This document shows positions 34,259 to 45,650 of a stretch of DNA of 55,613 nucleotides, in pieces (the first letter of the stretch is position 1; each line of letters starts with the position of its first letter). The position numbers and the translations under genes were made by a program. Below the pieces are notes generated by a model. It had not been told where the DNA came from and did not search any database. It was given only the letters and a program-made list of their open reading frames with translations. Source of the stretch: Treponema sp. UBA1226 (GTDB taxonomy: Bacteria; Spirochaetota; Spirochaetia; Treponematales; Treponemataceae); assembly GCA_002309195.1 (NCBI GenBank), contig DBWY01000012.1, positions 6,085 to 61,697 on the forward strand, written 5' to 3'.

Positions 34259-35020
34259 ATGAAAAAATTAATCGTTGCTTTAATGGCATGCAGTGTTCTT
34301 TTTTCTTTTGTTTCATGCGGAAAAAAGAATAAAGCAGAATCTGGCAAAGTATGGATTGTTGCTACAGACACAGTATTCAGACCATTTGAATACACAAACG
34401 AAAAAAATGAGTTTGTCGGAATCGACGTAGACATTCTTGCAGCTATTGCAGAAGACCAGGGTTTTAAATATGACCTTCAGGTTCTCGGATGGGATGCAGG
34501 TGTTGCTGCTGTTCAGGTTGGACAGGCAGACGGACTTATCGCAGGTGCTACAATCAAACAGTCACGCATTGACTCTGGATGGATTTTCTCTGACGGATAT
34601 TACAATGCAACACAGACATTCGTAGTTGCTGCAGACAGTTCAATTTCTAAATACGAAGATCTTAAGGGAAAAAATGTTGCAGTTAAAAACGGAACTGCAG
34701 GTGCAGATTTTGCAAATTCCCTCAAGGATAAATATGGATTTACAGTTACAGTATTCGAAGATTCTCCTACAATGTATCAGGATGTAATCCTCGGAAACAG
34801 TGCTGCATGCTGTGAAGATACTCCGATTATGGCAGACAATATCAAGAGTGCAGGTCTTGCTCTCAAGATTCCTGCAGGAATGGAAAGCGAAGGTGCTCCA
34901 TATGGATTTGCAATCATGAATCCGGATAACAAAGAACTTCTTGATATGTTCAATGCAGGTCTTGCAAACATCAAGGCTAACGGAAAGTATCAGCAGATTC
35001 TTGATAAGTATTTGAAATAA
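34259..35020 (+). CDS. Amino-acid ABC transporter substrate-binding lipoprotein (canonical order)
   Basis: A 253-residue family-3 solute-binding protein. Lipoprotein signal ends 'SFVSC' (~20). Lobe I comes first ('KVWIVATDTVFRPFEY', 'VGIDVDILAAIA', 'AGATIKQSRIDSGWIFSDGYY' with the carboxylate-binding Arg). Lobe II follows ('DLKGKNVAVKNGTAGADF', 'CCEDTPIM' with the ligand Asp), and it ends 'NIKANGKYQQILDKYL'. This is the normal GlnH-like order, useful for comparison with the permuted protein at 44834. It binds a polar amino acid in the periplasm for the permease and ATPase that follow. AGGAG precedes the ATG. Confidence 0.93.
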   Translation: MKKLIVALMACSVLFSFVSCGKKNKAESGKVWIVATDTVFRPFEYTNEKNEFVGIDVDILAAIAEDQGFKYDLQVLGWDAGVAAVQVGQADGLIAGATIKQSRIDSGWIFSDGYYNATQTFVVAADSSISKYEDLKGKNVAVKNGTAGADFANSLKDKYGFTVTVFEDSPTMYQDVILGNSAACCEDTPIMADNIKSAGLALKIPAGMESEGAPYGFAIMNPDNKELLDMFNAGLANIKANGKYQQILDKYLK

Positions 35021-35028
35021 AAATTTAA

Positions 35029-35060
35029 AAAGCCGCCGGGATAAAAACCTGTGCGGCTTT
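35029..35060 (+). terminator. Intercistronic hairpin between binding protein and permease
   Basis: AAAGCCGC (35029-35036)/GCGGCTTT (35053-35060), no T-run. Probably a partial terminator or an mRNA-stabilising stem that keeps the binding protein in excess over the membrane subunits. Confidence 0.55.
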
Positions 35061-35077
35061 ATAATGGAGTTCAACGA

Positions 35078-35749
35078 ATGATATCTATTTTGCAGTCCTA
35101 CAGCGTAATGCTTTTACGCTCTCTGGGATATACAATGATTCTTACGCTGCTTGCACTTGTCTTTGCCATGATAATCGGTTTGATATTTGCATTGTGTAAT
35201 GTAAGTCACAACAAGGTGCTTAATGTAGTCGGTACGGTTTATGTAGATGCCATTCGTGGTGTTCCGTTGATTGTTCTTGCATATTTTATTTATTTCGGAA
35301 TTCCTCAGGCGATAAAGATGATGGGGATCGCAGGCTTTAAGCTTCCTGCATTGCAGGCAGGTACCATCGCGCTTTCGATGAACTGCGGTGCTTACATGGC
35401 AGAAATTTTCAGGGCCGGAATCCAGAGTATAGACAAAGGTCAGATGGAAGCTGCCAGAAGTCTTGGTCTTACATACGGAACAAGTATGAAGAATGTAATC
35501 CTTCCGCAGGCCTTTCGCGTAATGGTTCCTTCTGTAATCAATCAGTTTATCATCACTTTAAAAGATACTTCGATTCTTGCAATTATCGGTTACCCGGAAC
35601 TTACGAATATGGGAAAAACCATTTCTGGTAATACCTTTAAGAGTCTTGAGACATGGGCGATTGTCGGAATAATGTACATGATTGTAATTGTTTCGCTCAG
35701 TAAGCTTGCAAAAATTGTCGAACGAAAATTAAAAGTCGAAGAACGATAA
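35078..35749 (+). CDS. Amino-acid ABC transporter permease
   Basis: A 223-residue HisM/GlnP-type permease with about five membrane helices. '[25 protein letters not shown]' opens it, and '[52 protein letters not shown]' contains the EAA loop contacting the ATPase. GGAG ten bases upstream sets the start at 35078; the GTG at 35051 lies within the hairpin. It is followed by the ATPase gene after one base. Confidence 0.92.
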
Positions 35750-35750
35750 C

Positions 35751-36503
35751 ATGGAGAATATAGAGATGAACGATAAAGTAAAGATACATGTAGAAAACCT
35801 TAAAAAAACTTTCGGTAAACTCGAAGTATTAAAAGATATTAACATCGATATTCACGAAGGCGAAGTTGTCGTTGTAATCGGTCCTTCAGGCAGCGGAAAG
35901 TCGACATTCCTTCGTTGTCTTAATAAACTTGAACATTCTAACGGCGGAAAGATTATCGTAAATGGCCACGATATAAATGATAAATCAGTAAACATAAATC
36001 ATGTGCGCGAAAACATCGGAATGGTTTTCCAGCATTTTAATCTTTTCCCTAACCTTACTGTCCTTGAAAACATAATGCTTGCTCCGGTTAAGCTAAAGAA
36101 AATGACAAAAGAAGAAGCGCATATTCAGGGAATGAAACTCCTTACACGCGTCGGACTTGATTCTAAAGCAGACGTTTATCCTCAGCAGCTTTCGGGTGGT
36201 CAGAAGCAGCGTGTCGCAATCGCGCGTGCGCTTGCAATGAATCCTTCGATAATGCTTTTTGACGAGCCTACATCGGCTCTTGACCCTGAGATGGTTGGAG
36301 AAGTTCTTACTGTAATGCAGGAACTTGCAAAAGGCGGAATGACTATGGTTGTCGTAACTCACGAAATGGGTTTTGCGCGCGAAGTTGCAGACCGCGTTGT
36401 ATTTATGGACGGCGGCTACATCATCGAAGAAGGAACTCCGGATGAAGTTCTTAAAAATCCTAAGCAGGAAAGAACTATAAGCTTCCTTAATAAAGTTCTG
36501 TAA
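35751..36503 (+). CDS. Amino-acid ABC transporter ATP-binding protein
   Basis: A 250-residue ATPase of the GlnQ/HisP class: Walker A 'GPSGSGKST', Q-loop '[17 protein letters not shown]', signature 'LSGGQKQR', Walker B '[15 protein letters not shown]', H-loop '[10 protein letters not shown]'. It powers uptake with the permease upstream. Since the second binding protein/permease pair (44106-45616) has no ATPase, this one might serve both; that is speculation. ATG 35766 is an alternative start. Confidence 0.93.
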
Positions 36504-43218: not shown

Positions 43219-43324
43219 TTCGAATTTCTGCAACTTTTTCGTAAAAACCTTGTCTAATTAGTATAGAAGGAACAGAAAGGATTTGATTTTGTTCCGCATA
43301 CCCTTAAAAAAAGAGGTTTTTTTT

Positions 43325-43978
43325 ATGAGAAACGTTATTAATACTATTCCGGCACTTCTTACAGCCGTAGCTAAAAAATTTGCAGTAAAACCTGCCATGC
43401 TTCTTAAAAATGGCAATAAAATTTCATATGACGATATGATGTGGGATGTATCACTTACATGCCGCGCCCTTAAAGAACAGGGAATTACAAAAAGCAGCAA
43501 GGTTGCACTTTTTATGGATAACAGCCCTCAGTGTGTAGAAAGTTTTCTTGCAATTACAAAGATGGGCGCAGTTGCAATTCTTATAAGCTATGATTTTTCT
43601 GAAAATCAGATTAAAGAAATTCTTGAACAGGAAAAACCAGATGCAATTTTTATAAGCGATTATAAATTAAGTTCTGTTCTTGGTGCGCAGAATACAACTA
43701 TTCTTGCAATTGATGATAACCGTGTGTTAAAACAGGTTTCACGCCAGGTAAAAAATTCTATCACACAGGTTTCAGAAAAAGACAATGCCGTAATCATGTT
43801 TGATACTACAGAAAACGGTGGACTTACAAAACAGGTTTTGACACAGAAAGCGTTTGTAGAAATGACATCACAGGTTAAAAAATCTTTTGTTACAGAATCT
43901 GTTAATTCTATTATCGATTGTGTAAAAGATTTTATCGCTCCGATTTTTAAGGGGTTTGCAGTTTGTACAACTAACTAG
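43325..43978 (+). CDS. Truncated adenylate-forming (ANL) N-terminal domain protein
   Basis: A 217-residue protein matching only the first third of acyl-CoA synthetases. 'KISYDDMMWDVSLTCRALKEQGI', 'VALFMDNSPQCVESFLAITKMGAVAILISYDF' and 'QIKEILEQEKPDAIFIS' align with the N-terminus of the full enzyme at 52291. Where that enzyme has the ATP-binding 'TSGTTGTPKG', this one has 'DTTENGGLTKQ'. The adenylation and C-terminal domains are absent, so catalysis is unlikely. It has a good start (GAGG at 43313-43316, ATG 43325) and a strong terminator of its own, so it looks maintained and not freshly broken. Confidence 0.7.
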   Translation: MRNVINTIPALLTAVAKKFAVKPAMLLKNGNKISYDDMMWDVSLTCRALKEQGITKSSKVALFMDNSPQCVESFLAITKMGAVAILISYDFSENQIKEILEQEKPDAIFISDYKLSSVLGAQNTTILAIDDNRVLKQVSRQVKNSITQVSEKDNAVIMFDTTENGGLTKQVLTQKAFVEMTSQVKKSFVTESVNSIIDCVKDFIAPIFKGFAVCTTN

Positions 43979-44012
43979 TTCCTTTTTTAAGGAGAGTTGT
44001 AAAATAGACTTA

Positions 44013-44069
44013 AGACTGCGGTTTCGTAAAATACGTGCAGGTATTTTACGCGCCTGCGGTCTTTTTTTT
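44013..44069. terminator. Long-stem terminator
   Basis: AGACTGCGG...CGTAAAATAC (44013-44034) pairs with GTATTTTACG...GCGGTCT (44041-44062), with an internal mismatch loop, followed by eight Ts. It ends the 43325 transcript. Confidence 0.85.
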
Positions 44070-44105
44070 GCCCGCACGTTGTTATGTAAATGTCAGAGAT
44101 TTTAA

Positions 44106-44777
44106 TTATCTTGAATTACTTCTTGCAAATCTTTTTTCTGCAATCGAGAAGATTTTTGTTAAACCGCATGTAAGGATAAGATAAATTGCGGCGCATGATA
44201 AAAGCGGAATCCACGCATTATACGTTGCGTTTCTGATTTTATCACCTGCATTGGTAAGATCCATTACAGCGATAAATGATGCAACAGATGTCTCTTTTAT
44301 CAATACGATGTATTCGCTTGCATATGTAGGAAGAATTGCTTTAAACGCCTGAGGAAAAACAATGTGTAAAAGTGTTTGTGCTTTTGAAAGCCCAAGAGAT
44401 CTTCCAGCTTCTGTCTGCCCCGGATCTACTGACTGGATTCCTGATCTGAAAATCTCTGCACAGTATGCACCTGAGTTTATTCCGTATGCGATGATGGCTA
44501 CGATAAGATTATTTGTAAGACCAATCGGAAGAAATATAACGAAGTAGAAAATCATAAGCTGTGTTGCAAGAGGAATACCTCTGAGCACAGTCGTATATAT
44601 TTCGCCGATAATCTGGAGTGGTTTGATTCCGGAGATTTTAAAAATTGCGATAAGCCAGCCGAGTATAGTACCGATTATAATTGCACATAAAGAGATAAGA
44701 AGGGTAGTGCCCAAACCTCTTGCAATAAGTACCCAGCGTGAGCCCGAAATTATTGTATCATAAAATGCCTGAATCAA
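44106..44777 (-). CDS. Amino-acid ABC transporter permease (second system)
   Basis: A 223-residue HisM/GlnP-type permease with about five membrane helices. The EAA loop is 'CAEIFRSGIQSVDPGQTEAGRSLGLSKAQTLLHIVFPQAFKAILP'. The frame is open to 44819, but that region is a terminator-like hairpin; GAGG at 44787-44784 points to TTG 44777 as start, giving exactly the length of the paralogue at 35078. It is downstream of the permuted binding-protein gene. No ATPase gene accompanies it. Confidence 0.88.
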   Translation of the reverse strand: MIQAFYDTIISGSRWVLIARGLGTTLLISLCAIIIGTILGWLIAIFKISGIKPLQIIGEIYTTVLRGIPLATQLMIFYFVIFLPIGLTNNLIVAIIAYGINSGAYCAEIFRSGIQSVDPGQTEAGRSLGLSKAQTLLHIVFPQAFKAILPTYASEYIVLIKETSVASFIAVMDLTNAGDKIRNATYNAWIPLLSCAAIYLILTCGLTKIFSIAEKRFARSNSR

Positions 44778-44793
44778 AACTGCCTCAAAAAAA

Positions 44794-44823
44794 AAGTCTG
44801 CAGAACTTATGTCCTGCAAACTT
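44794..44823 (-). terminator. Intercistronic terminator-like hairpin
   Basis: On the minus strand, AAGTTTGCAGGAC pairs with GTTCTGCAGACTT, followed by a nine-T run, between the binding-protein stop and the permease start. It probably limits permease expression, like the stem at 35029. Confidence 0.65.
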
Positions 44824-44833
44824 TTATATAGAA

Positions 44834-45616
44834 TTATTTACGAACGATGATAACCTGTTCTGATGTGTAATAAGGAACAGAAAAGTCTACGTTCTTTTTT
44901 CTTTCTTCTGTAACTGACATTCCGGCTGCGATAAAGTCGATTAATCCAGAATCAAGTGCGTTGATAAGTCCTTCGAAGGCCATATCAACAATCTGGAGTT
45001 TTGCACCGTAGTCCTGAGCAATGTGTTCACCCATTGAAATATCAAATCCTACAACATCTTTCTGTGGAATGTATTCGAATGGAGGGAACTGTGCATTTGT
45101 TCCGAGTTTTACAGATTTAGAAGAATCAATAACGATGGATTCTGGAACTTTAATTTCTCCATCTGCCGGCATAAATGCCTGGATGAGTTTGTCGTACTCA
45201 CCGTTTTCTTTCATTGTTGTGATTGTCTTGTTGATAGAATCCAGCAGGGCTTTGTTTCCCTTTTTAACTGCGATTGCATATTCTTCTTTATTTTCTGAGA
45301 ATACACTGTCGCGGACAATTGTAAGTTCCGGATGACGGCTTACGATTTCTTTTGCAGGAAGTTCATCGAGGATAACTGCATCGAGTCCGCCTGCCTTTAA
45401 TGAAAGGGCTGCATCGATTCCTGTTTTAAAAGGCAATACTTCTTTCTGTGTAAGGCCACTTGCTTCGTTAACCCAGGTTTCTCCTGTAGTTCCGGCCTGA
45501 ACACCTATTTTCTTTCCTTCGAGATCTGCAACTCCATTAATAACAACTTTCTTTTTTCCGCATGAAGCAAGGCTAAATAACATAACTGCACATGCGATTA
45601 AACTGATTTTTTTCAT
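44834..45616 (-). CDS. Circularly permuted amino-acid substrate-binding lipoprotein
   Basis: A 260-residue family-3 solute-binding protein with its halves in reverse order. Lipoprotein signal ends 'SLASC' (Cys19). Residues ~30-149 are what is normally the second half: 'DLEGKKIGVQAGTTGETW', 'GGLDAVILDE' (ligand Asp84), 'YAIAVKKGN', and 'TMKENGEYDKLIQAF', the usual C-terminus. A ~20-residue linker follows (150-169). Residues ~170-260 are the usual first half: 'LGTNAQFPPFEY', 'VGFDISMGEHIA', and 'AAGMSVTEERKKNVDFSVPYY' (Arg239), ending at the hinge strand 'SEQVIIVRK'. All ligand contacts are kept, so it should bind an amino acid. ATG 45622 abuts AGGAG, so the second ATG (45616) is the likely start. 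Confidence 0.9.
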   Translation of the reverse strand: MKKISLIACAVMLFSLASCGKKKVVINGVADLEGKKIGVQAGTTGETWVNEASGLTQKEVLPFKTGIDAALSLKAGGLDAVILDELPAKEIVSRHPELTIVRDSVFSENKEEYAIAVKKGNKALLDSINKTITTMKENGEYDKLIQAFMPADGEIKVPESIVIDSSKSVKLGTNAQFPPFEYIPQKDVVGFDISMGEHIAQDYGAKLQIVDMAFEGLINALDSGLIDFIAAGMSVTEERKKNVDFSVPYYTSEQVIIVRK

Positions 45617-45650
45617 TTCCATCTCCTGGACTTTATTGAATTTAACATTA

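Follow-up and report, generated by a model that had tools for sequence, protein, structure and literature searches.

A gene of the spirochaete Treponema sp. UBA1226, located on the minus strand of the 55,613-nucleotide stretch of DNA analysed here (hereafter the window), encodes a family-3 amino-acid-binding protein whose two sequence halves follow each other in reversed order. We conclude that its product is very probably a working amino-acid-binding protein of an ABC importer, predicted to be lipid-anchored, and a natural circular permutant of a family-3 protein; the order of the halves, their conservation, the operon, the selection acting on relatives and the predicted bilobed fold are each established below. 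Throughout this work, A denotes the classic first half and B the classic second half, the classic order being A-B and the permuted order B-A. The features concerned are the following:

44834..45616, minus strand: family-3 substrate-binding lipoprotein with permuted halves, 260 aa, coordinates up to and including the stop codon (open reading frame, Pfam, NCBIfam, PDB alignments, start site)
45560..45616, minus strand: signal peptide and lipobox to Cys19 (LASC), read from the sequence
45167..45547, minus strand: half B, the classic second half, residues 24-150 (NCBIfam, PDB, half-profiles, structure fit)
45119..45166, minus strand: linker that connects the former C- and N-termini, residues 151-166 (about 16 residues)
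44837..45118, minus strand: half A, the classic first half, residues 167-260 (Pfam, NCBIfam, PDB, half-profiles, structure fit)
44787..44825, minus strand: strong terminator-like hairpin followed by a T-run, located between the binding-protein and permease genes (-19.5 kcal/mol, z -6.7)
44106..44777, minus strand: amino-acid ABC permease (PF00528, HEQRo type; Pfam, NCBIfam), likely TTG start at 44777
34259..35020, plus strand: normal-order family-3 binding protein, used as internal comparison (PF00497, half-profiles)
35051..35749, plus strand: permease of the normal-order system (PF00528)
35751..36503, plus strand: ABC ATPase of the normal-order system (PF00005), the nearest ATPase seen to the permuted system

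The sequence-only reading of this DNA had placed the gene at 44834-45616, which is exact, and had given no strand, which is minus. The open reading frame taken from the first ATG spans 45622..44834 of the minus strand. The second ATG, at 45616, lies 6 nt from an upstream AGGAG resembling a Shine-Dalgarno sequence, and the database twin P0001 begins at the same position; because of this spacing and this twin, 45616 was preferred. Cys19 of the lipobox is nearly invariant across 115 permuted relatives (alignment A2). Half B comprises lobe II, the second hinge strand and the C-terminal helices of lobe I, while half A supplies the rest of lobe I and the first hinge strand.

That the two halves are swapped had been proposed from the letters alone, and the Pfam, NCBIfam and PDB coordinates, which all come in reversed order, bear it out (query coordinates from these three sources are counted from the first ATG and are 2 higher than in the 260-aa numbering). 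PF00497 (SBP_bac_3) matches the protein in two stretches, with an overall E of 2e-36 and a score of 125.1 bits, above the gathering cut-off of 26.4; the best stretch pairs residues 172-262 with positions 2-92 of a profile that is 132 positions long. The passage from first to second half of the profile is reversed in the protein, which is therefore a permuted variant of SBP_bac_3 and not an ordinary member. In NCBIfam, the C-terminal half (168-262) corresponds to TIGR01096 23-118 and the N-terminal half (24-154) to PRK11260 137-263, so that profile coordinates taken for each half run backwards; the sequence-only reading had proposed such a check with PF00497. Against TmArgBP (6svf), query 171-262 aligns with chain 12-104 and query 32-150 with chain 114-226. 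Among the PDB matches listed (60 of 98), a query half pairs with the opposite chain end in 59 of 60 rows; only the tandem A-B-A-B GlnP chain 6h30 departs from this, and query 27-258 aligns to it in a single stretch. The binding protein at 34259, said to have the normal order, does so: a single colinear PF00497 stretch joins its residues 33-252 to profile 2-130. Arg239, Asp84 and the G-T-T-G loop had been named as retained ligand contacts, and the 115 permuted sequences of alignment A2 all share Arg239, Asp84 and Gly42-Thr43-Thr44, with Gly45 nearly invariant. The Arg, Asp and G-T-T loop positions align with their TmArgBP equivalents, and we take them to be the amino-acid contacts of SBP_bac_3. 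Natural circular permutation, as first read from the sequence, is supported.

The AlphaFold2 model of the protein is compact and two-lobed (pLDDT 87.7, pTM 0.78). Its residues 24-112 superpose on TmArgBP 126-208 at 1.7 Å and its residues 164-255 on domain 1 of TmArgBP (6-98) at 2.3 Å, with 45% identity. When the whole first model was compared by Foldseek with classic family-3 chains of the PDB in linear order, TM values were 0.33-0.51; values this low are expected when an order-bound aligner meets a permutant, and the superposition therefore rests on the halves. Thus, of the structural agreement that had been anticipated, the single two-lobed fold is predicted as such, and the superposition on family-3 structures holds half by half only. 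No useful match to the permuted protein was found in a viral structure library. The cut had been assigned to a hinge crossing, with the old termini joined; sequence order, half-trees and structure model agree with this and specify the first crossing and a linker between the old ends. The new chain path would lead from lobe II through the second hinge to the C-terminal helices of lobe I, and from there through the linker to the rest of lobe I and the first hinge strand. One of the two covalent lobe-to-lobe crossings would thereby be cut, each lobe would bear one chain end, and the lipid anchor would sit on lobe II next to the hinge, instead of on lobe I.

The same order is common among treponemes. 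All 120 relatives among the database matches listed (of 2667) are B-A by separate half-profiles, at 63-100% identity; their source names are plain ('transporter substrate-binding domain-containing protein' or alike) and most entries are unlabelled. A pattern scan of genome contigs gave 173 matches, of which 131 encode a relative; the best 80 of those 131 loci were kept, whose titles are all Treponema, Avitreponema or spirochaete. Eight of the 80 are isolates by title (T. bryantii XBD1002, NK4A124, B25; T. socranskii; T. porcinum; JC4; C6A8; Marseille-Q4130). The half-profile test, applied to 130 partly overlapping loci and the window, returned 119 ORFs in B-A order, 17 in A-B order and 1 longer array. 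At the scale of the phylum, 47 of 392 genomes hold one frame covering the whole or nearly the whole of profile A1 (21 sequences), with 288-482 bits. In one spirochaete family, that of genome G286, whose genus takes in G001, the genome of the T. bryantii locus L018, 143 of 274 genomes match at 1e-40: 127 are permuted, two of them (G568, G583) with the gene as pieces at contig ends, and 16 have the halves in classic order. Five plasmid-collection proteins checked for order were all classic. Finally, NG86 dN/dS lies at 0.06-0.19 in 24 of 25 pairs of permuted relatives' genes (one pair was not computable); measured on these pairs, the permuted genes are under purifying selection.

These data bear on other explanations of the order seen in the window. 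An assembly error that joined two halves in the wrong order at this locus has a practically negligible chance of being the cause, since isolate genomes, 127 of the 274 family genomes and all 120 listed relatives share the order B-A, and purifying selection on the relatives speaks against it as well; misassembly was rejected on the recurrence of one order across relatives, isolates, family-wide and phylum-wide samples. A pseudogene was rejected for the Treponema clade by the same dN/dS values, which come from relatives. One could also imagine that the halves are not folded on each other and that domain-swapped dimers exchange them between molecules, and the clostridial B-A-B-A arrays described below do leave the choice of pairing halves ambiguous; nevertheless the monomer model is compact and confident and the linker is nearly constant in length (15-21 residues in 176 sequences), and we consider such dimers improbable.

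The permuted gene is followed directly by a permease of the histidine/glutamine type. By plain ORF listing the permease begins at 44819, and its likely TTG start lies right behind the hairpin; a terminator-like hairpin after the binding-protein gene is a usual means of making more binding protein than permease. Among permuted loci with at least 1000 nt of downstream sequence, 104 of 113 carry a permease at most 400 nt downstream, and an ATPase lies within 2.5 kb in 61 of the 75 loci with at least 2600 nt downstream (some loci overlap in both counts). A B-A gene beside a permease, which the sequence-only reading had suggested seeking in spirochaete genomes, is therefore found, in a set of 113 loci that is redundant. 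No ATPase gene lies behind the window permease (43978-44106), as against those 61 of 75 relatives. The next gene past the permease is a convergent short ORF of 231 aa (43283-43978, plus strand), which is similar to the N-terminal region of an AMP-binding acyl-CoA ligase and has a syntenic match in locus L121. In this syntenic relative (L121 808-1671, minus strand, with a citramalate synthase neighbour), the permuted binding protein stands without an adjacent permease. Because the window lacks an ATPase behind its permease and L121 lacks the permease itself, the window copy may belong to a thinned-out system. The ATPase at 35751..36503 would be a candidate shared partner of the permuted system.

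Concerning the ligand, Rfam gave no match between 33500 and 48500, hence no riboswitch or T-box clue. The best NCBIfam family, TIGR01096 (Lys/Arg/Orn), scores 150.2 bits, below its curated cut-off of 256, a shortfall that does not decide the ligand because the profile assumes the normal order. The nearest solved relatives include arginine- and glutamine-binding proteins. An amino acid, probably basic or polar, would be bound in the cleft between the lobes, which may close like a Venus flytrap and feed the ligand to the neighbouring permease.

Permuted family-3 domains are not confined to this clade. Loci L111/L112 and their relatives constitute a second permuted lipoprotein lineage, in which all 120 matches listed (of 2963) are B-A and the single organism name is 'Clostridia bacterium'. 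Permuted binding protein, permease, ATPase, argG and argH stand in one row in L111 (4797-9735, plus strand), and the two arg genes hint at citrulline or arginine uptake in this lineage. In Clostridia and spirochaetes, permuted domains also occur fused to the permease (L113 type): the 120 matches listed, of 5719, include 51 B-A, 63 B-A-B-A, 4 classic A-B-A-B and 2 cut or partial forms. Every organism name among the fused forms belongs to a metagenome bin; these names are Lachnospiraceae, Oscillospiraceae, Butyricicoccaceae, Acutalibacteraceae, Ruminococcus and Sphaerochaetaceae. In L113 (1690-4715, plus strand) the fused permuted domain-permease is followed by an ATPase and then dapB, and L127 (3104-6121, minus strand) encodes a B-A-B-A-B-A-permease of 1006 aa, that is, three permuted domains in tandem. 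Frames of a length like that of L127 are present in G144 and G314, and a 1109-aa frame in G411 C43. P0130 resembles an odd A-B-A-B-A array, but as its first residues read as the end of a B half, a longer array cut at the N-terminus is the probable explanation. P0197 carries the label 'partial'.

The occurrence of permuted forms in distant lineages raises the question of their origin. In separate half trees, which are weakly resolved with modest supports, both Treponema halves group with the classic spirochaete proteins L116-118 and more loosely with L119, L124 and L125; the fused clostridial permutants likewise have both of their halves near classic A-B-A-B fused proteins. One permuted row, L120, stands outside the other permutants in the half-A tree, its A half being unplaced. 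A hybrid of two unrelated binding proteins is unsupported, both halves grouping with the same relatives. A joined-halves tree (58 rows, 217 columns) was computed without P0130, P0197, L127, the second copies of most tandem repeats and the long-branched classic proteins window 34259, L021, Streptomyces and Cetobacterium; the best tree has 4 order changes, of which well-supported branches force 3. A tree that unites all permuted rows is rejected by the AU test (p 1.55e-5), and none of 200 bootstrap trees unites them; uniting Treponema permutants with clostridial lipoproteins gives AU p 0.012. For clostridial lipoproteins with fused forms the value is 0.22, and these could be one clade. It is rather unlikely that the permuted order arose once, long ago, with all classic relatives inside the tree being reversals: the C-terminal tails discussed below make reversal plausible in Treponema, but the two former tests contradict a single origin, and several reversals would have to be assumed, while 59 of the 60 PDB rows listed show the classic order. 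The permuted gene may have arisen by tandem duplication of A-B to A-B-A-B, followed by loss of the outer halves to leave B-A. No intermediate was seen in the Treponema lineage. In L114 (4815-6314, plus strand) two classic binding-protein genes are adjacent (L114/L115), and B of one gene with A of the next look permuted to the profile; this is an analogue only, which pictures the step from tandem pair to permutant.

The 16 classic-order orthologues share 69-74% identity, half by half, with their nearest permuted relative. All 16 carry in their C-terminal tail the motif [MI]P.[DE]G, which is present in 166 of 174 Treponema-type permuted linkers (a set with overlaps: the total of 177 B-A frames comprises 123 that are distinct over their last 200 residues) and absent from ten of ten other classic proteins and from five named outgroup tails; the tail of L170 resembles the greater part of a permuted linker. 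The permease tree places the permeases of three classic-order orthologues inside permuted operons, in a group of 18 rows supported at 100/98, with 85/64 and 80/89 at the inner forks. A limit of 90% identity reduced the combined set of binding protein and permease from 179 rows to 78, of which 75 entered the tree; those omitted are the window protein at 34259, L021 and L111. Also absent from the tree are L120, which has no permease, and L170, for which none was found in range. Ten classic-order orthologues remain in this tree once near-copies are removed, and they nest among the permuted rows in two positions: L178 pairs with L130 (97/93), and the nine remaining ones form one group (100/99) within a larger group of 32 rows (98/95). 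The permuted rows are kept together in 0 of 200 bootstrap trees, from a bootstrap that is not fully settled. At one of these loci, L116 (269-5931, plus strand), the classic-order orthologue and its permease are located between gyrase-B-type and gyrase/topoisomerase-IV-A-type genes (Pfam), with no ATPase between.

Opening a permuted chain inside its linker would leave just such a tail, which suggests that the classic-order orthologues with the linker motif represent a reversal of the permutation; a tailed parent fits too, and we put reversal at about even odds. The 16 proteins would otherwise be unpermuted parents, in which the tail came first and later became the linker. This has a real though lesser chance of being true: the AU test does not reject a single clade of the permuted orthologues (p 0.22 for the binding protein on its own, 0.113 once the permease is added), packing of the tail on lobe I could pre-date the cut, and some of the nesting supports, such as those of the inner forks of the permease tree, are moderate. 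Against such parents, the sampled classic-order orthologues lie inside permuted rows in the binding-protein, permease and combined trees, the last of these at two places and with no bootstrap tree uniting the permuted rows, and none of 10 outer classic relatives carries a tail of this kind. Taken together, it is tempting to propose, if tentatively and at somewhat under an even chance, that the order of the halves can be switched and even switched back, with independent origins in spirochaetes and Clostridia and at least one return in Treponema that left half a linker as a fossil tail.

Natural circular permutation is known in glycine-betaine-binding proteins, OpuAC versus ProX. OpuAC-type proteins have the same linear order of the fold as the window protein (colinear alignment 21-260 = 9-259, 14% identity) but belong to another sequence family with another ligand, and no such family appeared in Pfam matches up to E 1. 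In the available text of PMC4990184, Tp0684/TpMglB-2 of Treponema pallidum is a natural circularly permuted tethered binding protein, functional in vitro, with relatives in treponemes and Gram-positive bacteria. Compared by description, this 'Type Ic' protein has a Type I (Cluster B) sugar-binding fold, whereas sequence and model of the window protein fit family 3; its cut, as described there, adds a fourth hinge crossing while that of the window protein removes one. The engineered cpLAO-BP sensor is of family 3 and has a like cut, but is laboratory-made: according to the available text of PMC5087393, which refers to Okada 2009, one inter-domain linker was deleted and the old ends were joined by (GGS)4, and lysine binding was kept but 36-fold weaker, which its authors put down to the permutation and the fused fluorescent proteins. 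With PF00497 proteins (TmArgBP, LAO-BP, GlnBP, GlnP domains) the permuted form shares family, two-lobed fold, contact residues, a HEQRo-type permease and usually an ATPase; it differs by the reversed halves, the cut hinge crossing and an anchor presumably on lobe II. GlnPQ likewise has tandem family-3 domains fused to the permease, in A-B-A-B arrays, whereas most clostridial relatives listed are B-A or B-A-B-A. Among the matches listed in the open-licence literature, no natural permutation of a family-3 protein was found, and the accessible portions of PMC2861598, PMC9732360, PMC3688454 and PMC2912341 hold nothing on one. To the novelty asserted in the sequence-only reading must be added the like events in OpuAC/ProX, TpMglB-2 and engineered LAO-BP. 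The permuted protein represents no new kind of system; within a very well studied family it is a variant that is new, common and recurrent.

As to the benefit of such an arrangement, by analogy with cpLAO-BP natural permutants may trade affinity for fast release, which could be useful in nutrient-rich guts; alternatively, permutation may suit the membrane tether, as is proposed for TpMglB-2 in the available part of PMC4990184. Domain annotation hides the permutation under ordinary 'transporter substrate-binding domain-containing protein' names. Permutants probe the role of the second hinge crossing and of the anchor position, points that the work on TpMglB-2 raised without settling, and natural ones may make good sensor scaffolds. 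The tandem arrays found elsewhere are possible stepping stones to permutation, and the presence of both orders in one orthologous operon of closely related species makes the route and the cost of circular permutation directly studiable.
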